This document shows, one piece after another, positions 18,307 through 33,742 of a stretch of DNA of 48,343 bases. Both the position numbers and the translations under genes were made by a program. Positions within the stretch are counted from its first letter, which is position 1; every line of letters begins with the position of its first letter. Under the pieces are notes generated by a model that was given only the letters and a program-made list of their open reading frames with translations, ran no database searches and had not been told where the DNA came from. Where the stretch lies: assembly GCA_946479035.1 (NCBI GenBank), contig CAMLDW010000018.1, positions 1 through 48,343 on the forward strand, in the 5' to 3' direction. This DNA comes from an uncultured Chthonomonadaceae bacterium (GTDB lineage: Bacteria; Armatimonadota; Fimbriimonadia; Fimbriimonadales; Fimbriimonadaceae).

Positions 18307-18371
18307 GAGGAGTCTTGTCCCGCCGTGTGCAAAGTCGGGGGCCCTGGAACATGTGTCTACCATTCTGTGGG

Positions 18372-18377
18372 TAGAAT
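18372..18377 (+). promoter_or_regulatory. -10-like box TAGAAT for uvrA-N
   Basis: TAGAAT ends 9 nt before the uvrA-N ATG; no Shine-Dalgarno lies between. Confidence 0.5.
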
Positions 18378-18386
18378 CGTGCACGA

Positions 18387-20258
18387 ATGGCCCAGGAAAA
18401 GATCATCGTCGTCGGCGCGCGCGAGAACAACCTGAAGAACGTGACCGTCGAGATCCCGCGCGACAAGCTAGTCGTGATCACGGGGCTCAGCGGCAGCGGA
18501 AAGTCTTCGCTGGCGTTCGACACGATCTACGCAGAAGGGCAGCGGCGCTACGTCGAGTCGCTCTCGGCGTATGCACGGCAGTTCCTTGGGCAGATGGACA
18601 AGCCGGACGTCGACCACATCGACGGGCTCTCGCCAGCGGTCTCCATCGACCAGAAGAGCGCTTCGCGCAACCCGCGTTCGACGGTCGGCACGGTGACCGA
18701 GATCTACGACTACATGCGAATCCTGTTCGCGCGCGCCGGCACTCCCTACTGCCCCAACTGCGGCACGCCCATCGAGCGCCAGTCGACCGACCAGATCGTA
18801 GACGCGGTCAGCGCCCTGCCTGAGGGCACAAAGCTACAGATCCTCTCGCCGATCGTGCGCGGGCGGAAGGGCACGTACCAGAAGGAGCTGCAAGAGATCC
18901 AGGCGGCGGGCTACGTGCGCGTGCGCGTGGACGGGACGATGTGCGAAGTCACCGACGACATCCCCATGGACCGGTACAAGCAGCACACGATCGAGGTCGT
19001 CGTCGACAGGCTGGTGATGAAGGACGGCATCGGGCGCAGGCTGGCCGATTCGGTCGAAACGGCGCTGAAGATGGGCAAGGGGATGGTGACGGTCTCGCAC
19101 GAGGCCAAGGGGAAGTGGGTGGACCGGCTCTACAGCGAGCACTACTCTTGTGCAAAGTGCGGGTTTTCAATGCCCGAGCTGGAGCCGCGCATGTTCTCCT
19201 TCAACTCTCCTTACGGCGCGTGCCCTGAGTGCACTGGGCTAGGGACGAAGACGGAGTTCGAGCCGTCGCTGATCATCCCCGACGACTCTCTGCCGCTGCG
19301 CGACGGCGCGATCGTGCCCTTCGTCTACAAGTCGGGAGAGGTGAAGGAGTGGTGGCCGCAGGTCCTGGACGGCGTGGGCCGCACGCTCGGATTCGACGCG
19401 ACACTGCCGGTCAAGAAGATCGGTGCGAAGAACATGCAGGCCGTGTGGGACGGGCTGCCGGAGCCCGTGACAGTCCTCATGAAGTACGGCAAGAGCGAGC
19501 GCAAGTTCCAGACGAAGTGGGAGGGCGTGCTGAAGGTGCTCCGCAAGAAGTACGATCAGACGGAGAGCGAATGGATCAAAGCCGACCTTCAACAGTACAT
19601 GCGGACGAACCCGTGCCCCGTGTGCGGCGGGAGGAGGCTGAAGCCCGAGTCGCTTTCAGTCCGCATCGGCGACAAGAACATCTCGGAGGTGACTGCGTTC
19701 GCGGTCACGGACGCGCTTGCGTTCTTCAAGGACCTGCCAAGGAAGATGAACAAGCGCCAGCTCACGATCGCCGAGCGCGCTGTCAAGGAGATCATCGAGC
19801 GCCTCAGGTTCCTCTTTGACGTAGGGCTTTCTTACTTGACACTGAACAGAAACGCGACGACTCTCGCAGGCGGCGAGGCGCAGCGGATACGGCTCGCGAC
19901 GCAGATCGGCTCTGGGCTCATGGGCTGCCTGTACATCCTGGACGAGCCATCGATCGGGCTCCACCAGCGCGACAACCACAAGCTGATCGAGACGCTGCAA
20001 AGGCTGCGCGACCTAGGGAACACGGTGATCGTTGTCGAACACGACGAGGACACGATGCGCGCTGCGGACTGGCTCATCGACCTTGGCCCCGGCGCCGGAG
20101 AGCACGGCGGAAGGGTGGTAAACGAGGGTCCGATCGAGAAGTTCTTGAAGAAGAGCTCTCCCACTAGCGACTTCCTGAACGGTCGGGAGAAGATACCTGT
20201 GCCTACGGTGCGGCGCGCTCCTAGGACGCCGAGCCCGCTCTCCAAATCCAAACGCTAA
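18387..20258 (+). CDS. uvrA: UvrA N-terminal half as a separate gene (first ABC module)
   Basis: Damage-recognition ATPase of nucleotide excision repair, but only the first half: 623 residues against about 940-950 for a normal UvrA. It holds Walker A GLSGSGKSS (33-41), the UvrB-binding and DNA-damage insertion domains, the zinc cysteines (CPNCGTP; CAKCGFSMPELEPRMFSFNS then CPEC; CPVCGGRRLKPE), the signature TLAGGEAQRIRLATQIGSG and Walker B LYILDEPSIGLHQRDN, then IDLGPGAGEHGGRVV. It stops after the linker (REKIPVPTVRRAPRTP) exactly where a normal UvrA continues into its second module. The TAA is a real end: the following 190 bp do not encode the second half. The ABC signature reads LAGGE rather than LSGGE. 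The matching C-half is at 32669-33742. Confidence 0.93.
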   Translation: MAQEKIIVVGARENNLKNVTVEIPRDKLVVITGLSGSGKSSLAFDTIYAEGQRRYVESLSAYARQFLGQMDKPDVDHIDGLSPAVSIDQKSASRNPRSTVGTVTEIYDYMRILFARAGTPYCPNCGTPIERQSTDQIVDAVSALPEGTKLQILSPIVRGRKGTYQKELQEIQAAGYVRVRVDGTMCEVTDDIPMDRYKQHTIEVVVDRLVMKDGIGRRLADSVETALKMGKGMVTVSHEAKGKWVDRLYSEHYSCAKCGFSMPELEPRMFSFNSPYGACPECTGLGTKTEFEPSLIIPDDSLPLRDGAIVPFVYKSGEVKEWWPQVLDGVGRTLGFDATLPVKKIGAKNMQAVWDGLPEPVTVLMKYGKSERKFQTKWEGVLKVLRKKYDQTESEWIKADLQQYMRTNPCPVCGGRRLKPESLSVRIGDKNISEVTAFAVTDALAFFKDLPRKMNKRQLTIAERAVKEIIERLRFLFDVGLSYLTLNRNATTLAGGEAQRIRLATQIGSGLMGCLYILDEPSIGLHQRDNHKLIETLQRLRDLGNTVIVVEHDEDTMRAADWLIDLGPGAGEHGGRVVNEGPIEKFLKKSSPTSDFLNGREKIPVPTVRRAPRTPSPLSKSKR

Positions 20259-20448
20259 GTGCCGCGTCTTCACCAAGGTTCCTAGCATCGGCACTGACAG
20301 TCCAATACTTGGCGATGTTCATGCTGGCGCGGGACTCGGCGCAGTACCCGGGTAAGTCTTGAGTACACGCCCTCATTTGATCGGTGTCCTCAGTAGCGAC
20401 GCGTTGTGCCAAGTCTGGGCCATACTGGGTTTGGAGCGAAGTCGGCGG

Positions 20449-21048
20449 ATGTCGGAAAAGCAGTTCTACATCGATCCCAGCAGGTGCATCGGATGCAACG
20501 CGTGCGTCGCGGCGTGCGCGGAGTGCGACACGCACGCAGGCGTCTCGATGATCCATCTCGAGACTATTGAGCGCGCCGACAGCGTCCAGACGACTCCGAT
20601 AGTCTGCATGCATTGCGAAGAGCCAGCTTGCGCGGCTGTGTGTCCCGCGGACGCCATCAAGCGCACGCACGACGGCGTCGTCCAAAGCTCGCTCAAGCCC
20701 CGCTGCATAGGCTGCACGAACTGCGTCTACGCTTGCCCGTTCGGCGTCCCCAAGTATGAGGCAAAGATAGACCAAATGATGAAGTGCGACATGTGCTACG
20801 ACCGCACTTCAGTGGGGCTGCGGCCTATGTGCGCGACCGTTTGCCCCTCTGGGGCCCTCTTCTTTGGAACGCCGGAAGAGATCGCCGAGCAAAGAGGGTC
20901 GACCCCTGTCAATGAGTTCCAGTTCGGCGCACGCACGGTCCGCACAAAAGTCTCGATCATGATGCCGCAGGGAAGCACGCGGCTCAACGTTCAGCCCGGC
21001 GCGCTCATGCGAAAGAGCGACCTGCTCGCTACAGCGAGGACGTCCTGA
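20449..21048 (+). CDS. four-cluster [4Fe-4S] ferredoxin-type electron-transfer subunit (DmsB/HybA/NarH-like)
   Basis: Electron-carrier subunit, 199 residues, with four cysteine groups for four [4Fe-4S] clusters: [39 protein letters not shown] and CDMCYDR followed by CATVCP. This is the fold of the beta subunits of molybdopterin oxidoreductases. It has no signal peptide, so it is cytoplasmic. The frame is open from 20359, but the ATG at 20449 ([13 protein letters not shown]) gives the family's usual N-terminus. A CATACT box lies at 20421 and GGAG about 15 nt before the start. First gene of a tightly packed six-gene operon with the Rieske gene one base downstream; it probably relays electrons to the NasA-like subunit. 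Confidence 0.92.
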
Positions 21049-21049
21049 G

Positions 21050-21532
21050 ATGGAACAGCGCATCAAGGACGACTTTTCGATCGAGTGGGATGAAGACCGC
21101 TTCGTCTCTCGTCGCGAGTTCTTCAAGTTCATGACGGTCGCGAGCGCGGGGCTCGCCCTTGGCACTGCCATCCTTGCCGTGTGGCGTTCGGGAAGAGGGA
21201 CGACGAAGGCAGTGCGGACCAAGGTCGCACGCGTGCGGGATCTGCCCGTCGGTAAGTCGCTGCAGTTCAGTTATCCCGGAAAGGACGACCTGTGCATCTT
21301 GGTCCACAGGTCGGACGGGGAGTTCGCAGCATTCTCGCGGCGGTGCACGCACCTTTCATGCCCTGTGCAATACCAAGCGGAAAAGGCACGACTTTTCTGC
21401 CCGTGCCACAACGGTGCGTTTTCGCTTGAGAACGGGAGGCCGACCCAGGGCCCACCGCGGCGCGCCCTCGACCGGATCGATATCGAGGTCGAGCACGGCG
21501 TCGTGTATGCGACAGGAGTGACAAGGGCGTGA
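21050..21532 (+). CDS. Rieske [2Fe-2S] protein with Tat-type signal
   Basis: Rieske iron-sulfur protein, 160 residues. The cluster motifs are CTHLSC (CxHxxC) and CPCHNG (CxxH), with the following GRPTQGPP loop as in bc1/b6f Rieske proteins. The N-terminus has SRREFFKFMTVASAGLALG, a twin-arginine motif followed by a hydrophobic segment, so the folded protein is expected to be exported by Tat and to stay anchored, with the cluster outside the cytoplasm. It begins one base after the Fe-S gene stop and overlaps the next gene (GTGA). Together with the cytochrome b-like gene it could form a quinol-oxidising unit for the nitrate reductase. Confidence 0.92.
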   Translation: MEQRIKDDFSIEWDEDRFVSRREFFKFMTVASAGLALGTAILAVWRSGRGTTKAVRTKVARVRDLPVGKSLQFSYPGKDDLCILVHRSDGEFAAFSRRCTHLSCPVQYQAEKARLFCPCHNGAFSLENGRPTQGPPRRALDRIDIEVEHGVVYATGVTRA

Positions 21533-21762
21533 AGAGCGTCCACGAAGACCGTAGGCGGCAAAGGGCGTTGGTCGTCTCGGCCCTGATCATGTTCCAGCTC
21601 GTCATCGTGCTGCTACAACTCTGGCTCTTCGTATCTGTGCTTGAAGGCGTAGTCGCAGGGGCGAGCCAGATCGGTTTCACGGCGACCGTCGTTAGCCTGC
21701 TCTGTTTCGCGGCCAACGCTTGGATGCTTGTCGGCGTGTGGAGGATCGACCGTGCCGAATAG
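21529..21762 (+). CDS. small two-helix membrane protein of the nitrate operon
   Basis: 77 residues with two membrane segments (VVSALIMFQLVIVLLQLWLFV and TVVSLLCFAANAWMLVGVW) and charged ends. The GTG start overlaps the stop of the Rieske gene (GTGA), and the 3' end overlaps the narK start by 11 bp, so it is translated as part of the operon. I do not recognise the family with certainty; it may be one of the small membrane proteins found beside Rieske/molybdoenzyme clusters. A structural role in the membrane complex is inferred only from position. Confidence 0.72.
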   Translation: MKSVHEDRRRQRALVVSALIMFQLVIVLLQLWLFVSVLEGVVAGASQIGFTATVVSLLCFAANAWMLVGVWRIDRAE

Positions 21763-23239
21763 CCCGGCGAACCGCGTGCTAGCGATGAACGTCCTCATGT
21801 TCGCGCTCTGCTTCGCGTCCTGGACTCTGTTCGGCGTGCTCGTTACGTTCCTCGTCGACCACCGAGCCCTCGTGGTCGACAAGGCACAGGTCGGCTGGCT
21901 CATCGGTGCGCCGATCCTGACCGGGTCCGTACTGCGGCTCCCCGTCGGACTGCTCTCAGACCGTTACGGCGGAAAGCCAGCGAGCGTCGGCATCATGCTT
22001 GTCGGGGCAGTCGCTATGTATTGCGTGAGCTTCGCAAACGGATTTGGGCAGCTCATGCTCGTCGGACTCCTTTTTGGCGTGGTGGGCGCGTCCTTCGCCT
22101 CCGGTGTCGCCCTCACCTCCGTCTGGTTTCCCAAGAGCAGGCAGGGCACGGCGCTCGGCCTGCTCGGCCTCGGCAACGTAGGCACGGCGGTCACGGCGCT
22201 CAGCGCGCCGGCTCTGCTCAAGTGGGCGACGCAGGACGGCGCGAACATCGAAGGGTGGCGCCGCGTTCCGCAGATCTATGCGGGCGCGCTGGCGGTGATG
22301 GCGGTCGCCTTCTGGCTGCTCGCAGTCGCAAAGAAGCAGGAGGGTCCACCAAAGACGATGTCCTTGCTGCTGCAGCCGCTCAAGCAGGTTCGCGTTTGGC
22401 GGTTCGGCCTTTACTACTTCCTCATATTCGGCGGGTTCGTCGCGCTCTCGCAGTGGCTGATCCCCTATTCGCTCAACGTCTACGGTTTGACGCTCGCCTC
22501 CGCCGGACTGTTGTCTACGATGTTTAGCCTGCCTTCCGCCTTTACTCGCGCGATCGGTGGCTTCGTCTCGGACCGCTTCGGCGCGCGCGCGACACTCTAC
22601 TGGGTGCTCTCGGGCGTGCTGCTCTTGTTCCTCTTGCTCGTTGCGCCACGGATGGACATCACTTCGCCCGGCGAAGGGGTGCTGGCGGACCGCCCAGGAG
22701 TCGTATCGGAGGTGGGGCCAGAGAAGATTGTCGCCGGCGGAACAGTATATACGCTTCGAGTGAAGCACTCATCTAGTGAAAAAATGGACGGGACGGCGGT
22801 CGTATGGCCCCAGTTCGCCTCTTGGCACGAGCCGGCCGTAGCAGTCGGCGACAATGTCACAAAGAAGCAGGTCCTTGCACGAGGCGTGACACACATCTAC
22901 TTCCAAGCTAACCGCACGGTGTTCACTGTTCTCCTCTCCGTCGCCGGCGTTCTGATGGGCCTTGGCATGGCGGCGGTGTTCAAGCACATCCCCGAGTACT
23001 ATCCGAACGACGTGCCTGTCGTCGGCGGGCTCGTAGGCGTCATCGGCGGTCTTGGCGGCTTCGTGATGCCGATCGTTTTCGGCTATGCGCTCAAGGCGTC
23101 TGGCGTGTGGACGACCTGCTTCCTGATCCTGGCGGTCTTGTCCGCGGTCTGCCTTGTTTGGATGCACTTCGTCATCGCTCGCAGCGCAGCCGAACACGAA
23201 AAGACTGAGAGGGCCGCGCACCTGGGGGCCGAGAAGTGA
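21752..23239 (+). CDS. narK: nitrate/nitrite transporter, NarK family (MFS), with inserted soluble domain
   Basis: Twelve-helix major facilitator of the nitrate/nitrite porter family, bringing nitrate to the cytoplasmic reductase. Both nitrate signature regions are recognisable: LGLLGLGNVGTAVTAL in TM5 and VGGLVGVIGGLGGFVMPIVF in TM11, plus the MFS loop SDRYGGKPAS. Between two late helices (about residues 301-385) there is an extra soluble segment with VVSEVGPEKIVAGGTVYTL and VAVGDNVTKKQVLARGVTH, resembling a biotinyl/lipoyl- or hammerhead-type beta module, which ordinary NarK lacks. The GTG start at 21752 has GGAGGA about 7 nt upstream. The 3' end overlaps the next gene by 4 bp. Confidence 0.9.
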   Translation: MPNSPANRVLAMNVLMFALCFASWTLFGVLVTFLVDHRALVVDKAQVGWLIGAPILTGSVLRLPVGLLSDRYGGKPASVGIMLVGAVAMYCVSFANGFGQLMLVGLLFGVVGASFASGVALTSVWFPKSRQGTALGLLGLGNVGTAVTALSAPALLKWATQDGANIEGWRRVPQIYAGALAVMAVAFWLLAVAKKQEGPPKTMSLLLQPLKQVRVWRFGLYYFLIFGGFVALSQWLIPYSLNVYGLTLASAGLLSTMFSLPSAFTRAIGGFVSDRFGARATLYWVLSGVLLLFLLLVAPRMDITSPGEGVLADRPGVVSEVGPEKIVAGGTVYTLRVKHSSSEKMDGTAVVWPQFASWHEPAVAVGDNVTKKQVLARGVTHIYFQANRTVFTVLLSVAGVLMGLGMAAVFKHIPEYYPNDVPVVGGLVGVIGGLGGFVMPIVFGYALKASGVWTTCFLILAVLSAVCLVWMHFVIARSAAEHEKTERAAHLGAEK

Positions 23240-24261
23240 ACACCCCGCGCAGCGTGCGAATCGCGTATCTTGCAGCGTCAGTCGCCGCTCTCCTCGTCGT
23301 TGCATTGATCTGGTTTGGTTCGGGCAGGTTCTCGCGGTTTGATCCTCCGCTGAGCGCGTATGCGGCAGCGACCGTTTTCGCCGCGTTCGCCGTCACCTAT
23401 CGGTATTCGATGTGGGTCCAGCGCCCACCCACCTGGCCCTATTTCAAGAGGGGATGGAGCCTGTTCTTCCGTCGCAGCAAGCTCGGTGCAAACGTGCTAC
23501 TGCTGTTTCGTCTCGTCTTCGACGACATCATCGCGCAGCGCTTTATCGAAGAGCGTGGGCGCTCGCGCTGGATGGGCCACCTGTGCATCGCGTGGGGTTG
23601 CCTCATCGCCTTTGCGATCACCTTCCCGCTCAGTTGGGGATGGGTCCAGTTCGGCGCCGACGGCGAGCGGTATGTCGTCGAAGTGATGGGCCACCGCCAG
23701 TTCTCGTTCGACCCCGGCGGGCTCGTCGCGTTCTTCGTCTTCAATGGCCTCAACTTCAGTGCAGTCATGGTGCTGGCGGGCGTCTCCATAGCGATGCACC
23801 GCCGCATCCACGAGCGCGGCGCTCAAGCGGTTCAGAGCTTCGAGTCCGACCTGCTGCCGCTCTTCCTGCTCTTTTCGGTCGCGGTCACGGGCCTGATGCT
23901 CACTGCTAGCTCAAAGCTCATGCAGGGCGAGAACTACTCGTTCCTTTCGCTCCTCCACGCTTTCACAGTCATCTTGTTCTTGCTCTATTTGCCGTTCGGC
24001 AAGCTCTTTCATGTCATTCAGAGGCCGGCCCAGCTCGGTGTCGCTTATTATAAGAAAGAGGGCGCCGAGGGAGAGCAGTCCGTCTGTCCGCGCAGCGGAG
24101 AAGCGTTCCAGTCCAAGATGCACCACGATGACCTCGTCGGCCTCATGCAAGAGATCGGGTTTGACTTCGGCGCCCACCAGGACCTCTCTCCTGCTGAGAA
24201 ACGCAGGCTCGTCGCGCTCAACCAGGCGAACGAACTCGGTGAGAGGCCCTTTGCGGGGTAG
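23236..24261 (+). CDS. NarI-like cytochrome b membrane subunit
   Basis: Membrane protein of 341 residues with about six hydrophobic segments (AYLAASVAALLVVALIWF, CIAWGCLIAFAITFPLSW, GLVAFFVFNGLNFSAVMVLA, LLPLFLLFSVAVTGLMLTAS, LHAFTVILFLLYLPFGKLFH). The late motif HAFTVILFLLYLPFGKLFHV matches the haem-ligand helix of the nitrate reductase gamma/heterodisulfide reductase membrane subunit family, and MGHLCIAWG supplies another candidate His. The C-terminal ~75 residues are hydrophilic and cytoplasmic, with SVCPRSGEAFQSKMHHDDLV. It probably oxidises menaquinol and passes electrons to the Rieske/Fe-S proteins. GTG start overlapping the narK stop. Confidence 0.82.
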   Translation: MNTPRSVRIAYLAASVAALLVVALIWFGSGRFSRFDPPLSAYAAATVFAAFAVTYRYSMWVQRPPTWPYFKRGWSLFFRRSKLGANVLLLFRLVFDDIIAQRFIEERGRSRWMGHLCIAWGCLIAFAITFPLSWGWVQFGADGERYVVEVMGHRQFSFDPGGLVAFFVFNGLNFSAVMVLAGVSIAMHRRIHERGAQAVQSFESDLLPLFLLFSVAVTGLMLTASSKLMQGENYSFLSLLHAFTVILFLLYLPFGKLFHVIQRPAQLGVAYYKKEGAEGEQSVCPRSGEAFQSKMHHDDLVGLMQEIGFDFGAHQDLSPAEKRRLVALNQANELGERPFAG

Positions 24262-24267
24262 CTAAAC

Positions 24268-26451
24268 ATGGCAAAGCCCCCTCTCCCAGTCGAGGAACTG
24301 ATCGAGCAGTTCGGCCCGCATCTCAACTATGAGCCTCCGGGCGGATGGCAGGGCCGCGGCGAGCCAGAGCGCGTGGTCAAGACGCACTGCTGCTTCTGTG
24401 GCCAGCAGTGCGGGATCCAGCTCAAGGTCCGCGAGAACAAGGTGATCGGTTTCGAACCGTGGGAGGAGTTCCCCTTCAACCGCGGAAAGCTCTGCCCTAA
24501 AGGCGTCAAACGGTACATGCAAGGGAACCACCCTGACCGACTGCTCGGCCCACTAAAGAGAGAAGAGGGCGTGGGCTTCGTGCAAGTTTCGTGGGAGGAT
24601 GCACTTGCAAAGACGGTGTCCGAGGTCCAGCGCGTGCAAGCCAAGTACGGAAGGGACGCTGTCGCCGTGCTCTCCGGCGTTTCCCTCACGAACGAAAAGA
24701 GCTATCTGATGGGCAAGTTCGCGCGCGTCGCCCTGCAAACCAAAGAGCTCGACTATAACGGGCGCCTCTGCATGGTCAGTGCGGGGACTGGGAACAAAAA
24801 GGCGTTCGGCATCGACCGCGCCGCGAACTCGTGGCAGGACATCCTGCTCGCAGACGTCATCCTTTGCGCAGGCACGAACGTCGCAGAGTGCTCGCCAATC
24901 ACGACGGACTACATCTGGCGCGCACGAGACCGGGGCGCGAAGCTCATCATGGTCGATCCTCGCGTCACGCCGTTGGCGCGCACGTGCGACCTCCACCTTC
25001 CAGTGCGTCCGGGCACCGATTCTGCCCTATTCAACGGCCTCCTCCGTGTGTTGATCGAAGAAGGGTTTGTAAACAAGCCGTTCGTCGACGCACACACGAG
25101 CGGATGGGAGGGCGCCGAGAGGACGGCGCTTGCTCAATCGTTGGACGAGGCATCGCGCATCAGCGGAGTTCGGCTCGACGACATCGTCAAGGCGGGCCGC
25201 ATGTGGGGAGAGGCCGCTTCGAGCTTCCTGCTGCACGCGCGCGGGATCGAGCACCACACGAAGGGCGTGGACAACGTGCTGAGCTGCATCAACCTGGTCC
25301 TTGCTACCGGGCGCATCGGCCGCCCGGGCTGCGGCTATGGCACCATCACGGGCCAAGGGAACGGGCAGGGCGGGCGCGAGCACGGGCACAAGTGCGACCA
25401 GCTCCCTGGCAACCGCGACATTGAAAACCCAGAGCACCGCGCCTACATCGCCAAGGTGTGGGGCATCGAAGAGAGCGAGATGCCGGTCAAGGGCCACACC
25501 GCGCAAGAGATCATGAACATGATCCACGAAGGCGAGATCAAGGCTCTCATTTCGATCTGCTTCAACCCTCTCGTCTCGCTTCCTGACTTGGCCCACACGC
25601 GCGCGGCGCTTTCTCGCCTCGAGCACTTCACCGCCATCGACTTCTTCCTCAGCGAGACCGCGCACCACGCCGACGTCGTGCTCGCCGGCTCGCTGCACGA
25701 AGAGGAAGAAGGAACGAGCACGAGCGCCGAAGGCCGCGTGATTAAGATCAACCGGGCAGTCGATCCGCCGGGCGACGCAAAACGGGACACAGAAATCGTT
25801 CTGGAGCTGGCGCGAAGGCTCGGTCGCGGCAAGTACTTCGACCACTTCGAGACGAGCGAGGACGTCTTCAACGAGCTTCGCGTCGCCAGCAAGGGCGGCA
25901 CCGCCGACTATTTCGGTATAAGCTACGAGCGGATCGTCGACGAGATGGGCGTGTTCTGGCCCTGTCCCGAGGTCGGCCACCCCGGCACACCGCGCCTCTT
26001 TGAAGACCACGTCTTCTTCACGCCCGACAAAAAGGCGCACTTCCACGCAGTTCCTTATCGCCCGAGCGCCGAGGAGCCCGACGACGAGTACCCGGTCATC
26101 CTCACAACGGGCCGCGTTGTGTCGCAGTACCTGAGCGGCACGCAGACGCGACGCATCGGCGCCCTCGTCGACATGTGTCCTGAACCCTACGTCGAGATCC
26201 ATCCGACCTTGGCGGCCCAGTACGGGATCGTGGACGGCGGGTGGATGAAGGTCGAGAGCCGGAGAGGATCCGTCACTCTGAAGGCGAAGGTCGTAACGAC
26301 GATCCGCCCGGACACGGTGTTCATCCCTTATCACTGGCCCGGCGCGAGGTCCGCGAACAACCTCACTCAGCGCGCGCTCGACCCGCTCAGCAAGATCCCA
26401 GAGTACAAGAAGTCGGTCGTCCGAATTGCTCCCGCGACGACAGCGATCTAA
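24268..26451 (+). CDS. molybdopterin oxidoreductase, NasA/NapA-like nitrate reductase catalytic subunit
   Basis: Catalytic subunit of a bis-MGD molybdoenzyme, most likely reducing nitrate to nitrite. At the N-terminus C42, C44, C48 and C76 (CCFCGQQCG and LCPKG) form the [4Fe-4S] site, and Cys168 in GRLCMVSAG sits at the position of the molybdenum-ligating Cys of NapA/Nas[27 protein letters not shown], the [15 protein letters not shown] stretch and the C-terminal cap ([33 protein letters not shown]) are typical. No Tat signal, so the enzyme is cytoplasmic; at 727 residues it is close to NapA in length but NasA-like in location. The linked narK, Fe-S, Rieske and cytochrome b genes support nitrate as substrate, but another oxyanion is not excluded. 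Confidence 0.9.
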
Positions 26452-27416
26452 TCTCCGGTAGCGACTGTTCCAGCGGTCCGCGCCGCAATCTCCGAGCATT
26501 TGCACCAGTCGACCTCTGCACCGAGAATGCGGTTGATCCGCTCTGCGAGCAGGTCGAGCGCGCGCAGTCCGGTCTCCTTCCCGTTCGAATAGAGCGACTG
26601 CCAGTGCGTCAGCAGCACAGGCGTCCCGCCAGCGGCGAGGATGCGCGGAACGTCTCCGCGACCGTCCTCGGTCAGCATCTTGTCGACGATCCCAAGCAGG
26701 AACTCGTCGTCTGTCCGCGGCGAGTCGATCGTCTCCCACCACCAGTCGCGCACCGTTGCAGGCACGGCGACTAAGCGACCGGGCACCGCGATCCAGGGCC
26801 GCTGCTCCGGCCTATCGAAGATCATCTGTAGGAAGTACCACGAAAAATCGCGGTCGTAGACTTGCTTCTGCGCCGCGACGATCGACGCCTCATACTCTTC
26901 GAGCACCTCGATGCCGAAAACCCAAGGCGAAGTCACGCCGTTTGCGTCGATCCCTGCCTCTTTCAAGAGCGTGAGCGCCTGCACGAGGTATGGGGTCAGC
27001 GTCTCGCGGGTCTGCGTCTGCGACCACTGCGACTCGCCGAGCGGGATGTCCTCCCCGGTAGCAAGGTCGATCGCAAAGTTGTGCGTGATCCCCTCTGGAC
27101 AGAAGTCGCACAATCGGTCAAGCCGCCTCTTGACCGTCGCGATCCACTCAAAGGTCAACGCAGGGTCGAACCCCTCGATGCCACGCGCGACGTCGCCCAT
27201 CCGTGCAGGTGCAGGGACGATCGAGAACTTCCCCTTGATTCCGTGCCGCTCCATCACGTCGCAAAACCGGTCGAGGAAAGCGTTCGGGACGGCGTCGTGC
27301 AGCGGCGCGCCGTAGCCGGTCGTCGGCGGCTTCATGTGAACGTCCTCCCAATGGCGTCTGTAAACATGCACCAAGGGGCACGGGTCGTCCACGAGCAGTG
27401 CGATCGGAGTCCTCAA
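26448..27416 (-). CDS. conserved protein of unknown function, possibly polysaccharide-deacetylase-like fold
   Basis: About 322 residues, cytoplasmic, no signal peptide. The N-terminus [20 protein letters not shown], followed by [20 protein letters not shown] and later [19 protein letters not shown], resembles the Asp-rich first strand and barrel layout of the NodB/glycoside hydrolase-deacetylase superfamily. I cannot assign a family with confidence. The frame opens at 27521 without a good start; a TTG at 27416 (L R T P I A L L V) is preceded by TAGAAT with an 8-nt spacer, the same leaderless arrangement as many neighbours. Its stop overlaps the stop of the NasA-like gene by 4 bp. Confidence 0.65.
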
Positions 27417-27424
27417 TGGACTGT

Positions 27425-27430
27425 ATTCTA
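27425..27430 (-). promoter_or_regulatory. -10-like box TAGAAT for the deacetylase-like gene
   Basis: TAGAAT on the minus strand ends 8 nt before the TTG start at 27416; no Shine-Dalgarno lies between. Confidence 0.45.
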
Positions 27431-27456
27431 TCCCCCATCTGTCTGCCCGCTTAGGG

Positions 27457-30057
27457 TTAGCGCAACATCGCAGCGGCGTCGCCGTTCGGGACGGGCCGCC
27501 CGAAGTAGTAGCCCTGCGCAAAATCGCAATGCAAGTCTCGGATCGCGGCGAGCTCTTGATCGTTCTCGACCCCTTCCGCCGTCACCGAAAGATTGAGCGC
27601 GTGAGCAAGGTTCACAATAGCCTGAGCGATCATCGCGCCACTGCCACCGTCCTTGAGGTCTGCAACAAAGGACCGGTCAATCTTGAGAGAGTCGATCGGA
27701 ACCACGCTGAGGGAGCTCAGCGAGGAATACCCCGTCCCAAAATCGTCGAGCGCGACGCCGACGCCGATCGCGCGCAGTTTGCCCAGCGCGTCCGCCACCG
27801 AGTCCTTGTTCTCCATGAAGACGCTCTCCGTCACCTCGAGCCGCAAGTGCGAGCCGTCCAGGTCGGCGGCTGCCAGTGCCTCTGCCACGATCTTGACCAC
27901 GTCGATCTGCGAGAACAGCCGCACCGAGACGTTGACGTTGATCGTAAGGGGGCGTATGCCCGGGTGTCGCCTGTGCCAATCGCCCATTTGCTGACAAGCT
28001 TTCCGAAGCACCTGCCGATCGAGCTCCGAGATCAGGCCGGTCTGCTCGGCGACCGGGATGAACTCGCTTGGTAGCAACATCCCCTTTTGTGGATGCTCCC
28101 ACCTCACCAGCGCCTCAAAGCCGACGATCGTCCGGGTTTCGAGCGAGTAGATCGGCTGGTAGTGCACGTCGAGCCCGTCGCTTTCGAGCGTCCTCCTCAG
28201 GTCCGCTTCAAGCCGAAGGACCTCGACGACCGGCTTGTGGCTGTCGCCTTCATAGACCTGGTAGCGCTTGCGCCCCAGAGCCTTCGCACGGTACATCGCC
28301 GTGTCCGCGTCCTGGATCACGTCCACCGGTCTATTGTGCCTCGGCCCGATCAGCGTTATCCCTATGCTTGCGCTCGCGAAGAACTCTTCTCCCGAAAGCA
28401 AGTACGGCTTATGGAACAGCCCCTCGATGCGCTTCGCCACGTCTTCCGCGTAGCACAGGTCCGAAACGTCCTCCAACAGGACTGCGAACTCGTCACCCGC
28501 CAACCGCGCGACGGTGTCGCCAGGTCGGAGGATCGCCTCGATCCTCCGACCTGTCTCCACCAGGAGCTCATCGCCGACACCGTGTCCGAGCGTGTCATTG
28601 ATGAGCTTGAACCGGTCTATGTCGAGGTATAGGAGACCGTGGGACTTGGCCGATTGCCGCTTGCTAGCCCGGAGGCTCTGGCCCAGGCGATTGAGGAACA
28701 ACGTCCGATTGGGCAGGCCCGTGAGCGGATCATGAAGCGCTTCTTGCTCAAGCTCCTCCTCGTGTCTCTTCCTGTCGGATATGTCGACGCACATTCCGAC
28801 ATATCCCGCGAACGATCCGTCGGAGAGGAACCTCGGGTTGCCGGTGGACATGACCCACCGATAGACTCCATCGGCGCGCTTCAGCCGAAAGTCTGCTCGA
28901 AAGTTCTTTTGGGTCGAAAAAGCCGAGCTATAGTTCTTCAGGAGTGCGTCTGCGTCGTCGGGATGCACGCTCTCTATCCAGCCGAGTCCCAAGTCCTGTT
29001 CTTCACTGCGCGCCGTGAAGTCGAGCCAAGTCTTGTTCAAGAACGTACACCGCGCGCTAGGATCGGAGACCCAGATCATTGAGGGAGAACTGTCAGCGAG
29101 GGTCCGGAAGCGGTCTTCGCTCTCGCGGACCGCCTGTTCCGCCAGCAACATCTCATGAGTCGCAGAGGAGAGCAGCATCGCGGTCACCGCGACCACTCCG
29201 GTAAACGCCTGTGCTAGCAACAGCGCAGTCTCCCTATCAAAGCTGGCAAACGGCCCGTGCCGTGCCAGGGTGCCGGCGAGCACGATCGTCCCGAAGACCA
29301 GAGTCGCAGTGGTTGCGACCCTGGGAAAGAACCTGAACGCGATCCATACCATCGGCGGCAGGCACAAGAACGTCTGGGCGAACGGCGACCCCTCGATCGA
29401 GTGGGTGCTGTCAAAAACGATCAAGGTCGAAAAGGCGATGAGCACAAACAGGAATCCCGCTTCGATCGCACGTCTGAAACTCCACCGGACGATTGGGTGC
29501 GCCGCCCAAACGATGATGGGTGGAGCGACGATGAGTGCGCCCGTGGCGTCACCCAGCCACCATGTGCGCCAAACTGAGGCGATACTGTCCCACGATGCGT
29601 AGCCGGTTGCGACAAGGCTCGCCACGCCGATCGTCGCACTCAATGTCGTGCTAAGAAGTGCGGCGAACAAGACGAACTTCGCCGTGTCCATCGGGCGGTC
29701 AAAGGCAAAGCGCCCGTTGGCAAGCCTCTGGACAAGAAAGGCCGCCACGAGCCCCTCGAGCGTATTGCCGGCGGCGATGCCGAGCGACGAAGCAAAGTTG
29801 CCCGCGGTCGTGATGTTGACGAGAAACGCGCCCACCAGGATGAGCGGCCAGACTCGGTAGCCGAGCAGCAAGATCGCCGCGATCGCGATGCCGGTCGGCG
29901 GCCAGACCGGCGTCGCGCTCGGGTTCTCGATGGCCAGCCGCAGCCCGAGCTTCGCCGCAAAGACATAGACGGGGAGAAGAAGGAGGTAGGGGAGAAGCGC
30001 GAACAGACGGCGCCCTTTCGCAGACCGACCGCTCGCTAGGTCACTCTCTTGACGCAT
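27457..30057 (-). CDS. MASE1-PAS-GGDEF-EAL membrane c-di-GMP protein
   Basis: Bifunctional-type c-di-GMP turnover protein of 866 residues. The first ~300 residues contain about eight membrane segments and the MASE1 pattern (LRLAIENPSATPVWPPTGIA, WWLGDATGALIVAPPI). A PAS/PAC domain follows (about 315-430, DRFRTLADSSPSMIWVSDPS to MCVDISDRKRHEEE), then a GGDEF domain (DPLTGLPNRTLFLNRL; site LAGDEFAVLL, first Gly replaced by Ala, around 519) and an EAL domain with VGFEALVRWEHP (about 647), DDFGTGYSSLSSL and AEGVENDQE. The EAL catalytic residues look complete, so phosphodiesterase activity is likely; the AGDEF variant may or may not cyclise GTP. ATG at 30057. The upstream 143 bp separate it divergently from the truncated uvrA copy. 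Confidence 0.94.
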   Translation of the reverse strand: MRQESDLASGRSAKGRRLFALLPYLLLLPVYVFAAKLGLRLAIENPSATPVWPPTGIAIAAILLLGYRVWPLILVGAFLVNITTAGNFASSLGIAAGNTLEGLVAAFLVQRLANGRFAFDRPMDTAKFVLFAALLSTTLSATIGVASLVATGYASWDSIASVWRTWWLGDATGALIVAPPIIVWAAHPIVRWSFRRAIEAGFLFVLIAFSTLIVFDSTHSIEGSPFAQTFLCLPPMVWIAFRFFPRVATTATLVFGTIVLAGTLARHGPFASFDRETALLLAQAFTGVVAVTAMLLSSATHEMLLAEQAVRESEDRFRTLADSSPSMIWVSDPSARCTFLNKTWLDFTARSEEQDLGLGWIESVHPDDADALLKNYSSAFSTQKNFRADFRLKRADGVYRWVMSTGNPRFLSDGSFAGYVGMCVDISDRKRHEEELEQEALHDPLTGLPNRTLFLNRLGQSLRASKRQSAKSHGLLYLDIDRFKLINDTLGHGVGDELLVETGRRIEAILRPGDTVARLAGDEFAVLLEDVSDLCYAEDVAKRIEGLFHKPYLLSGEEFFASASIGITLIGPRHNRPVDVIQDADTAMYRAKALGRKRYQVYEGDSHKPVVEVLRLEADLRRTLESDGLDVHYQPIYSLETRTIVGFEALVRWEHPQKGMLLPSEFIPVAEQTGLISELDRQVLRKACQQMGDWHRRHPGIRPLTINVNVSVRLFSQIDVVKIVAEALAAADLDGSHLRLEVTESVFMENKDSVADALGKLRAIGVGVALDDFGTGYSSLSSLSVVPIDSLKIDRSFVADLKDGGSGAMIAQAIVNLAHALNLSVTAEGVENDQELAAIRDLHCDFAQGYYFGRPVPNGDAAAMLR

Positions 30058-30200
30058 GCCTACCCGCCTTCATGATATAGCCTGCGGCTTGATCCAGGGA
30101 CGAGTTATCAGACAGGCTAGTCTCCAGCGCCATACCGCTCCTCATCTGGGCACCCGACGAACCCACGGCGCTCTCCAAAAATGAGTATCGTTGTGTCTAC

Positions 30201-30758
30201 ATGACCGAAGGCTGGCTGGTGGTGCGCGGAGCGCGCGGGCACAAGCTCAAGGACGTCGACGTGGCGGTCCCCTTGGGGCTCTTCGTCTGCGTCACCGGCG
30301 TCAGCGGCAGCGGCAAGTCCACGCTCGTGCAGGACATCCTCTTCCCAAAGCTGATGTACGAGGTCTACGGCACGCGCTCGGCCTGGCAGGACCACCGCGC
30401 GATCGAAGGCGCGGACCAGCTCGACAAGGTCATCGACATCGACCAGTCCCCCATCGGGCGCACCCCCCGCAGCAACCCCGCCACCTACACCGGCACCTTC
30501 GACATGATCCGCGAGCTCTTCGCCATGACCCCGGACGCCAAGATGCGCGGCTACAAGAACGGCCGCTTCTCGTTCAACGTCAAAGGCGGGCGGTGCGAGG
30601 CGTGCAAGGGCGACGGCATCATCAAGATCGAGATGCACTTCCTGCCGGACGTCTACGTGCCCTGCGAGGTGTGCAAGGGCAAGCGCTATAACCGCGAGAC
30701 GCTGGAACCTAGCGCGGCGGAGGCACGAGAAACCTTGGCAGTAGCGTGGATTTCATGA
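30201..30758 (+). pseudogene. truncated second copy of the UvrA C-terminal half
   Basis: 185 codons. [20 protein letters not shown] through [15 protein letters not shown] aligns with the first ~170 residues of the UvrA C-half at 32669, including Walker [10 protein letters not shown] and the CEACKGDG / CEVCKGK zinc site, then breaks into an unrelated 17-residue tail ([16 protein letters not shown]). The ABC signature, Walker B and dimer/ATPase motifs are missing, so it cannot be a working ATPase. Bases 30225-30703 are identical to 32696-33174 except at 30245 (G here, C there), yet the first 24 bases differ at many positions. The break lies 5 bp before the stop codon of the convergent gene. A TATCGT box (30186-30191) ends 9 nt before the ATG, so expression of the fragment is possible. 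Confidence 0.85.
30225..30703 (+). repeat. 479-bp direct repeat, copy A
   Basis: Identical to 32696-33174 apart from one base (30245 G versus 32716 C, giving Lys versus Asn), offset 2471 bp. Similarity ends abruptly on both sides. Confidence 0.95.
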
Positions 30759-31407
30759 TGGTCGAAACGCCAGGAGAACCTTTTCTGAACTCTGCAAAAT
30801 CGGCAAGCTGCTCCTCAAACTCACCAACCACTGTATCGGCGCTAATGGACTCGGGAAGGTAGCAGCTGACTAGCCACGAGGGCGTGTCCGAACCAGGGAT
30901 GAGCGCTCTGGGAATTGCGAAGGACACCCGCTTGCCCGTGTGATTGATCTTCACGTCACCCAGCTTGTGGAAATCGCTCGTCCTCACAATGGCAGCTTTG
31001 CCTGGCGAAATGCGCGGGCGAGAGTTGTAGACGTACCGACTCGCAGCATACACGAGCACGTACTGCTGCTGTTCCGGCCCTGGGAAGAAGAGCTGAAAAG
31101 CCAACGTCCCTTGAGTCTTTGCGGGCATTGCGTCAACGAGGTCAATGTCAACACGTACGGACGTAGGGCTCACCTCCACGTAGGCAGCACGCCGCATTCG
31201 CGCATAGTCGGGCACTGGATACGACGTCGCCTTCTGCGTCTTGCGAACGATCACACTTGACTGCACAGGGCCCGGTTCCGAGCCCGAGGCCCCCTCGGCC
31301 CGCGCCAAAATCTTTTCCTGGTTCGGTGAGGGGGCTTTCATGCCTAGTCCCAAGAGAAGGGCCACGGCGAGAATCGCACCATTGCCTCTAATAGCGGCAG
31401 AAGACAT
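30709..31407 (-). CDS. secreted or anchored protein of unknown function
   Basis: About 232 residues. The N-terminus [20 protein letters not shown] looks like a signal peptide or anchor; the rest is a soluble domain of mixed strands ([53 protein letters not shown]) with no motif that I recognise. The frame opens at 31440 inside the upstream gene. I chose the ATG at 31407 because TAGAGT (31421-31416) precedes it by 8 nt; the adjacent ATG at 31410 is equally possible. It lies in a stretch that looks less GC-rich than its surroundings, sandwiched between the two uvrA-C copies, and may have arrived with the event that duplicated them. Confidence 0.6.
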
Positions 31408-31415
31408 CATGGTCC

Positions 31416-31421
31416 ACTCTA
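31416..31421 (-). promoter_or_regulatory. -10-like box TAGAGT
   Basis: TAGAGT on the minus strand ends 8 nt before the ATG at 31407 and overlaps the stop codon of the upstream gene. Confidence 0.3.
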
Positions 31422-32507
31422 CCAGCCCGGCCAACCCCAATAGCCATTTGGGGGACCCTGATAAACAAGTATGGCGTTCTGGTTGTAGACTTTCAGGATG
31501 TTGTTCCAGGGATCATAGACATACGTCATCGATTGGTGCAGGTTATGAGAATAGTTGCGCCATGTGAAATACCACTTACCATCCGCGCCCTGAAACCAGC
31601 CGAAGTATCCGTTGCGACCTCCGTCGTAGCCGCACTTGGCGACCCACTGAGTGACTTCGCTCGGATCGAGCCGTCCGTTTCCGTTCGTGTCGTAACCGTA
31701 GCCAATCCGAAATGCCCCACCGATGCTGTACAGGTTGACATAGTAACCCGGACGGCCAGGCCAAGGGGCGCTCACGCCGAAGTCATAGCCGCCCTCATGG
31801 GTAGGGCCAATGCTTGCCGCCCAAGTTCCCTGGCCCGGCTGAGGCGGAAACGTGATACCGCCCGGAATGATCCAAGGGAAGTGGACTGGAAGCTGCGGAA
31901 GTTCGTTGAAACGCAGAGAGCCCCCGGAACCTTCGGGATGCATGGGAAGCAGCGTGTGGACATTGGCAAGCGCGGGGTCGAGATCATAGTAGTCGCCGAG
32001 TTGGCCGCCAAAGTTGCCTACGTTGAGGCTGAGTTCGGTTCCGCCTGGGAGATAGCACGTCGCAGCAATGCGCGCCGAATAGCCGCCCAAAGAGGACGTA
32101 GGGGCCTGAATTGTCAATTCGGATCCGTTGACCGAATATGAGCCGTAGGCGACGATCGTTCCTGAGGGAATGTCCATCACGCCGACCTGCCCCGGACCCA
32201 GGTTCGGCGATGAGCCCAAGGTGTATCCGCCGAGAGGGAGCGCGATCAGGCGATTGCCGAACTGTGCCTCAAAGCAAACAACGTCGCTGATCGTGCCGGG
32301 AACGGAAGCTCCCATAGTGAACTGGACCTGGGTATTTGCCCCCGCCGTACTCACGGAGGCAGAAGAAATTTCCATCCATGAAGGAACGGTGAAGCTGGCG
32401 GCAACGCCATTCAGACGGTTCAGCCACATTTCGGAATGTTGAGCGTTGGCTCCGACGCTCGCCAGAGCCATGACTCCGAGGACGAATGACTTGAAAAGCC
32501 TTCTCAT
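31419..32507 (-). CDS. secreted protein of unknown function with one EF-hand-like loop
   Basis: About 362 residues. MRRLFKSFVLGVMALASVGANAQ is a clean signal peptide with an ANA-Q cleavage site. The mature protein is rich in Gly, Tyr, Trp and Asn and beta-prone, with two hydrophobic-strand repeats in the first half. The loop YDTNGNGRLDPSEV has the DxNxNGxxD spacing of a calcium-binding dockerin/EF-hand site. The C-terminus is aromatic (YQGPPNGYWGWPGW). The frame opens at 32540 (MEVIHD), but the ATG at 32507 fits the signal peptide and has AGGGAT just upstream. No family recognised. It is transcribed divergently from uvrA-C and probably with the downstream unknown gene. Confidence 0.7.
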   Translation of the reverse strand: MRRLFKSFVLGVMALASVGANAQHSEMWLNRLNGVAASFTVPSWMEISSASVSTAGANTQVQFTMGASVPGTISDVVCFEAQFGNRLIALPLGGYTLGSSPNLGPGQVGVMDIPSGTIVAYGSYSVNGSELTIQAPTSSLGGYSARIAATCYLPGGTELSLNVGNFGGQLGDYYDLDPALANVHTLLPMHPEGSGGSLRFNELPQLPVHFPWIIPGGITFPPQPGQGTWAASIGPTHEGGYDFGVSAPWPGRPGYYVNLYSIGGAFRIGYGYDTNGNGRLDPSEVTQWVAKCGYDGGRNGYFGWFQGADGKWYFTWRNYSHNLHQSMTYVYDPWNNILKVYNQNAILVYQGPPNGYWGWPGW

Positions 32508-32612
32508 ATCCCTAGCGACGGTGTCGTGGATTACCTCCATTCATAGAGTCAGGCGAAAACTCAGTTGCTTCATCTTCGCACACTGGCCCCGCCATTGCTG
32601 TCGGTATTCAGC

Positions 32613-32618
32613 TATACT
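32613..32618 (+). promoter_or_regulatory. -10-like box TATACT upstream of uvrA-C
   Basis: TATACT ends 9 nt before the ATG of a 14-codon upstream frame (32628-32672) that leads into uvrA-C. Confidence 0.5.
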
Positions 32619-32627
32619 TCTGTCCAC

Positions 32628-32672
32628 ATGTTCCCGAATTCGACTTCGTCCTTTGCCGCGTATCTAACATGA
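32628..32672 (+). CDS. 14-codon upstream ORF overlapping the uvrA-C start
   Basis: [14 protein letters not shown], whose TGA overlaps the ATG of uvrA-C (ATGA at 32669-32672). Its own ATG lies 9 nt after a TATACT box, so it would be the leaderless first frame of the transcript and uvrA-C would be translated by termination-reinitiation. Nothing in the peptide suggests a function; coupling or attenuation is the likely purpose if it is translated. Confidence 0.45.
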
Positions 32673-33738
32673 GTGCCAGCGGTTGGCTCGTCATCCGCGG
32701 AGCGCGCGGGCACAACCTCAAGGACGTCGACGTGGCGGTCCCCTTGGGGCTCTTCGTCTGCGTCACCGGCGTCAGCGGCAGCGGCAAGTCCACGCTCGTG
32801 CAGGACATCCTCTTCCCAAAGCTGATGTACGAGGTCTACGGCACGCGCTCGGCCTGGCAGGACCACCGCGCGATCGAAGGCGCGGACCAGCTCGACAAGG
32901 TCATCGACATCGACCAGTCCCCCATCGGGCGCACCCCCCGCAGCAACCCCGCCACCTACACCGGCACCTTCGACATGATCCGCGAGCTCTTCGCCATGAC
33001 CCCGGACGCCAAGATGCGCGGCTACAAGAACGGCCGCTTCTCGTTCAACGTCAAAGGCGGGCGGTGCGAGGCGTGCAAGGGCGACGGCATCATCAAGATC
33101 GAGATGCACTTCCTGCCGGACGTCTACGTGCCCTGCGAGGTGTGCAAGGGCAAGCGCTATAACCGCGAGACGCTCGAGGTCAAGTACAAGGGCAAATCGG
33201 TAAGCGACGTGCTCGAGATGACGATCGAAGAGGCGTGCGAGTTCTTCAAACCGATCCCCAAGATCTTCCGCAAGCTGGAGACCCTGCAACAGGTTGGACT
33301 TGGCTATCTGCACATGGGCCAGCCCGCGACGACGCTTAGCGGCGGCGAGGCGCAGCGCGTCAAGCTCTCCTCCGAGCTCTCCAAGCGCGCGACCGGCTCC
33401 ACCCTCTACATCCTGGACGAGCCCACGACCGGCCTCCACTTCGAGGACGTGCGCAAGCTGCTCGCCGTGCTGCACGACCTGGTCGAGAAAGGAAACACCG
33501 TGCTCGTGATCGAGCACAACCTCGACGTAATTAAAACTGCGGACTGGGTGATCGACCTCGGCCCCGAGGGCGGCGACGCCGGCGGCCGCGTCATCGCTCA
33601 GGGCACACCGGAAGACGTCGCTGCGGTCGCTGCCTCGTACACGGGCAAGTACCTGAAGAAGGTCTTGAACGACAAGAACCTTCCGACGCCGAACGGGCAT
33701 GCGAAAGGAAAGCGCGACGTTCGCGCTAGAGTGAGGTC

Positions 33739-33742
<4 letters not shown>
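32669..33742 (+). CDS. uvrA: UvrA C-terminal half as a separate gene (second ABC module)
   Basis: The missing second module of UvrA, 357 residues. It begins [20 protein letters not shown], the region that in an ordinary UvrA follows the inter-module linker, then Walker [10 protein letters not shown] (34-42), [20 protein letters not shown], the zinc site CEACKGDG / [10 protein letters not shown], the signature [19 protein letters not shown], Walker [16 protein letters not shown] and the His loop [20 protein letters not shown]. All catalytic elements are intact, so together with 18387-20258 a full set of UvrA motifs exists. No upstream sequence in this frame encodes the N-half. The start overlaps the stop of a short upstream ORF, and the stop overlaps the start of the MoeB-like gene (GTGA). 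Confidence 0.93.
32696..33174 (+). repeat. 479-bp direct repeat, copy B
   Basis: Partner of 30225-30703; lies within the intact uvrA C-half gene and covers Walker A and the zinc-finger region. One mismatch in 479 bases. Confidence 0.95.

Follow-up and report, generated by a model that had tools for sequence, protein, structure and literature searches.

UvrA encoded by two separate half-genes in a Fimbriimonadaceae bacterium and the majority of its sequenced relatives

We analyzed a stretch of 48,343 nucleotides (contig CAMLDW010000018.1; hereafter the window) from an uncultured bacterium of the Fimbriimonadaceae that carries UvrA as two half-genes. In bacterial nucleotide excision repair, DNA damage is sensed by UvrA, which has been described as a single chain with both ATP-binding cassette (ABC) modules. 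The open reading frames (ORFs) for module 1 and module 2 each have their own start and stop codons (Table 1). The module-1 ORF matched positions 2–609 and the module-2 ORF positions 613–942 of the NCBIfam UvrA profile NF001503 (943 positions); jointly they were complete, and the profile was covered once, with the cut at 609/613 in the inter-module linker. On the PDB chain 9gxk_A, module 1 was aligned to residues 22–630 and module 2 to residues 632–961. The Pfam domains PF17760 (UvrB interaction) and PF17755 (DNA-binding) were matched in 18387–20258 and unmatched in 32669–33742. The sequence and domain features of UvrA that were tested (the whole profile and the UvrB-interaction and DNA-binding/insertion domains) are present in the window, and the two ABC modules lie in two ORFs and not on one chain. 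The initial annotation had described the first gene as holding the first module only, together with the UvrB-binding region, and the second gene as holding the second module only, the cut falling at the inter-module linker, the halves lying 12.4 kb apart, and each half having its own start, stop, and −10-like box. All of this was borne out, with a measured distance of 12,410 bp and with boxes at 18372–18377 (TAGAAT) and 32613 (the TATACT element). The description of two half-genes was incomplete in that a third piece, a truncated module-2 copy at 30201, had been overlooked.

Table 1. Coordinates of UvrA-related features in the window.
Feature	Position	Strand	Description
GTCTAC and −10-like TAGAAT upstream of module 1	18355-18360 and 18372-18377	+	GTCTAC/GTAGAC type
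UvrA module 1 (ABC-I, UvrB-interaction domain, zinc modules, DNA-binding/insertion domain)	18387..20258	+	623 aa, own start and stop
TATCGT-TGT-GTCTAC-ATG element at start of truncated copy	30186..30203	+	usual module-2 start element type
Truncated module-2 duplicate	30201..30758	+	NF001503 613-778 (5′ part), then unrelated codons
DNA between truncated and intact module-2 copies	30708..32612	.	~1.9 kb, G+C ~0.58 (500-bp steps) vs mostly 0.60–0.65 around
TATACT-TCT-GTCCAC-ATG promoter/start element upstream of module 2	32613..32630	+	type seen before relatives' module 2 and some uvrB
UvrA module 2 (ABC-II with Zn3 motif)	32669..33742	+	357 aa, own start and stop

We examined 85 genomes of the Fimbriimonadaceae (Armatimonadota), all 85 of which gave a UvrA match at E ≤ 1e-30; the split or fused state was called by reading the ORFs in the regions around the matches. 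Both halves were present as separate ORFs in 53 genomes (including G078, in which module 1 is frame-broken), and a single fused uvrA ORF was present in 17, of which those of G046 and, at a contig end, G059 are incomplete at the C terminus. Module 2 occupied its own frame of 340–552 aa in 11 genomes. The remaining genomes were G001 and G043, in which only module 1 was seen (with an in-frame stop in G001), and G030 and G050, with weak or partial UvrA matches only. The split was found on genome-sized contigs of 2.65–5.23 Mb, including one of 5,231,762 bp in G007. A protein search with module 1 gave 33 proteins of 620–689 aa among the best 120 matches, the window's own included; the longest contigs for several of these were 120–614 kb, and the same longest contig of 462,369 bp was listed for both P0131 (module 1) and P0010 (module 2). 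The spacing of the halves in the family ranged from 142 bp to more than 1 Mb. Among 34 same-strand pairs on the same contig, module 2 lies downstream at <1 kb in 13, at 1–10 kb in 13, and at 10–100 kb in 4, and the other 4 are further away or in the reverse order (spacings were taken from match ends, and a few module-1 ends are approximate). The halves are convergent in G036 and on opposite strands, more than 1 Mb apart, in G062. The initial annotation had proposed a check of relatives for a full-length uvrA; no full-length canonical uvrA was found in any of the 14 inter-module-split genomes re-searched at E ≤ 1e-10. G007 additionally carries, at C1:2687084–2689315, a UvrA-like frame of 798 aa with 39–45% identity and no match to the UvrB-binding region. 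In G078 (L133), module 1 extends over two overlapping frames that break near residue 476; a sequencing indel is the probable cause. G195 was considered as a possible further split and was not kept, since runs of N interrupt both of its pieces.

The ATPase motifs of the halves are conserved. Walker A-I, both signatures, Walker B-I, and both H-loops are intact in 54 of 54 split rows, Walker A-II is intact in 53 (the exception is G005), and Walker B-II reads LDEPTTGLH in all 51 of the 54 rows that were inspected. The ratios of nonsynonymous to synonymous substitution rates (dN/dS) were 0.016–0.142 for module 1 and 0.006–0.144 for module 2 (10 of 13 pairs with computable dS). Since these values are far below 1, both halves are under purifying selection. 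The module-1 tails and the module-2 heads are similar across the split genomes, and UvrB and UvrC (16/16 relatives) as well as RecA and LexA (15/15 relatives) scored above the cut-off. These data bear on the explanation that misassembly split a normal uvrA or that the gene is decaying into a pseudogene. The window contains an exact identity of 458 bp between the truncated and the intact module 2 (30246–30703 = 32717–33174), which is a type of repeat able to mislead assemblers; some relatives contain partial module-2 copies, and single halves are damaged in G005, G078, and G001. Misassembly at such a repeat could shift the flanks; it would not connect module 2 with module 1. Moreover, the same linker is cut in 53 of the 85 family genomes, genome-sized contigs included, and the window split is therefore not a misassembly, an error that the initial annotation had named as able to overturn its claim. 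With this recurrence, the low dN/dS values, and the kept motifs, misassembly or decay is largely refuted and very improbable.

Partial module-2 copies were found near the intact gene in 5 of the 16 neighbourhoods read (L264, L265, L267, L268, and the window); those upstream of it are 5′ or middle pieces, and those downstream are 3′ pieces. G062 and G063 carry further small module-2 pieces hundreds of kb away. In the window, the truncated copy retains the usual start element and the intact module 2 starts after a stretch of lower G+C content, in which the ORFs 30709–31440 (−) and 31419–32540 (−) gave no Pfam or NCBIfam match. Because of the truncated copy with its start element, the lower-G+C DNA before the intact copy, and the layout of the 5′ and 3′ pieces, we hypothesize that module 2 was moved by incoming DNA that recombined at one end within conserved module-2 sequence and joined illegitimately at the other. 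One-sided homologous recombination at module 2 is put forward as only an idea. No mobile-element explanation for the partial copies was found. In L265, one ORF pair resembles an IS3-type transposase by eye. The genes inside the 12,410-bp gap of the window include ferredoxin-type, nitrate-reductase-like, and GGDEF/EAL genes (profile matches). A major facilitator superfamily transporter gene (21728–23239; Pfam) adjoins the nitrate-reductase-like gene and shows, by eye, a soluble-looking stretch of ~90 aa among its transmembrane parts.

The positions of the genes also bear on ways in which a single chain could still be produced. Frameshifting or read-through is excluded because the genes may lie more than 1 Mb apart or on opposite strands. 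Protein splicing or ligation after translation would also restore the normal chain, and the cut sits at the linker, where joining would be harmless. However, the module-1 tails inspected are short, the module-2 ORF goes straight from its own start codon into the first strand, and nothing of intein length occurs at either end. Inteins were rejected, as no room for them was seen at the module-1 or module-2 ends, and post-translational rejoining in general is scarcely credible.

We constructed a tree of UvrA residues from 95 rows with the linker columns left out. The rows G018c, G032, G085, G090, G108, G195, and G199–G201 were left out as incomplete or doubtful, and twelve more (two far outgroups, near-duplicates, and long branches) were removed before state changes were counted. 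Some rows were likewise left out of the module-distance correlations given below. The split and fused states required at least 12 changes on the tree when the second split type described below was counted as split, and well-supported branches force at least 7 changes for the inter-module split. Sister pairs of opposite state are fused G002 and split G003 (support 99), fused G015 and six split rows (97), and fused P0122 and the window (98). The fused forms of the family with a canonical linker (35–37 aa between the chosen anchors) all belong to one clade of 32 rows (support 89). Fused forms with a long linker (42–72 aa; G018a, G020–G023, G046–G048, G083, and P0122) are found next to split rows or interspersed with them in both parts of the tree, and for this reason they look re-fused; the reverse direction is also allowed. 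A single clade of the 42 split and long-linker rows was not rejected (approximately unbiased test, p-AU 0.328), and a single origin of the split in those rows is neither shown nor rejected.

A class-level search (Fimbriimonadia) of 113 genomes included 28 from other families. Eight of these 28 (G086–G093) have one fused ORF, which is cut by a contig end in G090. The other 20 (G094–G113) form a sister group, in which 13 carry residues 1 to ~237 (260–367 aa) and residues 247 onward (728–1,123 aa) at different loci (ORF lengths measured from stop to stop). Within the rest of the group, G097 and G102 showed the latter part only, a fused form is present in G109 and G112, the state of G113 is ambiguous, and nothing was seen in G100 and G101. 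The two pieces of this second type lie ~1.0 Mb apart on opposite strands of the single 2.99-Mb contig of G099. In the predicted model of a fused relative, the second cut maps to the hairpin loop between strands 233–239 and 245–251, behind the UvrB-interaction domain, and would thereby separate Walker A-I from Walker B-I by placing them on two chains. The dN/dS values of the second-type pieces were 0.022–0.096 in five of five pairs. Among the genomes listed for the rest of the phylum, UvrA is mostly encoded in one frame of ~940–1,060 aa, besides contig-end fragments and double-length frames. The UvrA matches of G251, G264, G267, G270, G276, and G287, which are other members of the phylum, lie in frames of ~1,740–2,105 aa, about double length.

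To describe the upstream control elements, we counted the hexamer GTCTAC/GTAGAC near gene starts. The exact hexamer was found ≤60 nt from the start of 48 of 52 module-1, 19 of 25 fused uvrA, and 18 of 53 module-2 genes (background for 60 nt, 612 of 20,000 random windows). The degenerate form GTCYAC/GTRGAC occurred upstream of 49 of 52 module-1 and 40 of 53 module-2 genes, and upstream of both halves in 39 of 52 cases (background, 2,824/40,000). Within 130 nt, the exact element was present at lexA in 15 of 15 relatives (L319–L333; background, 918/20,000) and at recA in 4 of 15 (background, 4.6%); for 2 of the 15 lexA and several of the recA genes, the position taken as the start is not a start codon. 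The counts for uvrB (5/15) and uvrC (3/7, with the locus L263 read in the wrong direction) refer to ~200 nt and have no background of their own, the 4.6% value being that for 130 nt. In the second split type, the exact element was near 1 of 12 N-pieces and none of 12 C-pieces. Judged from its occurrence, GTCTAC/GTAGAC is a putative LexA-type box, and the copy upstream of lexA is possibly the SOS box of the Fimbriimonadaceae. A literature search for a LexA or SOS box in the Armatimonadetes found nothing. We infer SOS control of the halves only weakly because of the low counts of the exact element at module 2, recA, and uvrB, of which the latter two lend weak support.

Module 2 is further associated with the start element TANNNT-N3-GTYYAC-ATG, which was found at 29 of 53 module-2 genes and also at 29 of all 12,254 ATGs in L112–L231; this is an agreement of the totals and not of individually matched ATGs. 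The TANNNT hexamer begins 15 nt before the module-2 start codon in 34 of 53 cases, which suggests that the module-2 mRNA may be leaderless. In the window, a 14-codon ORF (32628–32672) starts at the ATG of the element, 41 bp upstream of the module-2 ATG at 32669, and its TGA overlaps the latter. Exact TATAMTNNNGTYYACATG gave 20 matches in 14 of 20 whole genomes and none with the reversed control. The genes downstream of these matches are 12 module-2 genes (one being the damaged G005 copy), 3 truncated module-2 copies, 3 uvrB genes, 1 sigma-factor-like gene, and 1 helicase-like gene, the last two being named by eye.

In canonical UvrA, both nucleotide-binding domains are on the same chain, as stated in PMC7835731, and PMC6486640 describes a proximal site formed by ATP-binding I and signature II and a distal site formed by ATP-binding II and signature I. 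The initial annotation had spoken of four ATP sites formed in cis and in trans between modules; this can be sharpened, on the same source, in that each composite site combines the ATP-binding part of one module with the signature of the other, giving two sites per monomer. A1 (module 1) and A2 (module 2) would pair and then dimerise like UvrA to (A1A2)2, and the linker cut would place every composite ATP site between the two chains. Neither half alone would work as UvrA because each ATP site would need parts of both. The UvrB-binding domain would come from A1 and the zinc hairpin, which contributes to damage sensing, from A2. In the predicted model of the fused relative P0122 (mean predicted local distance difference test score 74.9, predicted template modelling score 0.65), which was used only to locate the linker, the inter-module stretch 599–629 shows only isolated bridge residues, and a cut there should therefore cost no fold. 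Related upstream elements (GTCTAC/GTAGAC as at lexA, and the type common to uvrB), present at many of the gene pairs, could keep both products matched despite the distance between the genes.

Alternatively, the halves could work separately, module 1 alone repairing with UvrB or module 2 having a non-repair role. The relocation and partial duplication of the module-2 gene would fit such independence, as would its partly separate drift: the distances of module 1 and module 2 correlate with r 0.608 in the split rows (53 rows) compared with r 0.874 in the fused rows of the family (23 rows). Against this, both composite ATP sites take one part from each module according to PMC6486640, the start element is common to module 2 and uvrB genes, and seemingly re-fused long-linker forms stand among the split rows on the tree. 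We regard separate function as unlikely. Several observations nevertheless weigh against a two-chain UvrA under shared control. The weaker correlation in the split rows means that the halves are not strictly passed on as a unit, consistent with a degree of independent module-2 exchange. G005, which is split, has a damaged Walker A-II, and module 1 of G078 is broken over two frames. The degenerate element is missing upstream of one or both halves in 13 of 52 split rows, and the exact element is upstream of only 18 of 53 module-2, 4 of 15 recA, and 5 of 15 uvrB genes. The 20 genomes searched with TATAMTNNNGTYYACATG were hand-picked, most being already known to have the element at module 2. Finally, the support is sequence-based, and the evidence on an intact uvrA elsewhere in the genome comes from relatives of the window.

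Taken together, the window very probably encodes a genuine split UvrA, with A1 and A2 from separate genes forming a putative heteromer with inter-chain ATP sites. The heteromeric UvrA suggested by the initial annotation is supported by the split in relatives, the kept motifs, and purifying selection; its physical assembly, inter-chain ATP sites, and repair activity are what we infer from these. For the Fimbriimonadia as a whole, we lean toward a broader reading, in which UvrA has repeatedly changed between one and two chains (by the inter-module split, several re-fusions, and the second split behind the UvrB-binding domain in the sister group). The split form would be an obligate heteromer with all ATP sites between chains, its genes would be linked by common SOS/uvrB-type elements, and the module-2 gene would be a landing pad for incoming DNA.

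UvrA relatives of the UvrA2/DrrC/Ecm16 type are single chains, and UvrA2-type proteins have no UvrB-binding domain; like the two halves of split UvrA jointly, they are UvrA-like double ABC ATPases. Heterodimeric ABC transporters are two-chain ABC ATPases with composite ATP sites between different chains, a feature that split UvrA would share. Laboratory work has also been done on isolated UvrA domains. The double-length UvrA (NCBIfam PRK00635, 1809 positions), which we take to be chlamydial, also has an altered number of ABC modules per chain, but by fusion and not by fission. Canonical bacterial UvrA (PRK00349/TIGR00630; PDB 2R6F, 9GXK) has the same domains and ATPase motifs as the split form, whereas it is one chain from one gene and the split form is two chains from two genes. 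The initial annotation knew of no described split UvrA, and our literature search, with most subscription papers outside its reach, found neither a split UvrA nor a two-chain damage sensor of nucleotide excision repair. The main text of the genome paper on Fimbriimonas ginsengisoli Gsoil 348T mentions the nucleotide excision repair system and does not contain the word uvrA. Split UvrA would be new as a form of UvrA, having the sequence and domain features of UvrA and not its single chain. In natural two-chain forms, each ATP module can be separately purified, mutated, and mixed, which makes testable the division of work between the proximal and distal sites, so far studied with single-chain point mutants. 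The clade, which has a cultured type strain for experimental work, offers natural material on the fission of an ABC ATPase, with UvrA forms that are fused, split, split at another site, or apparently re-fused.

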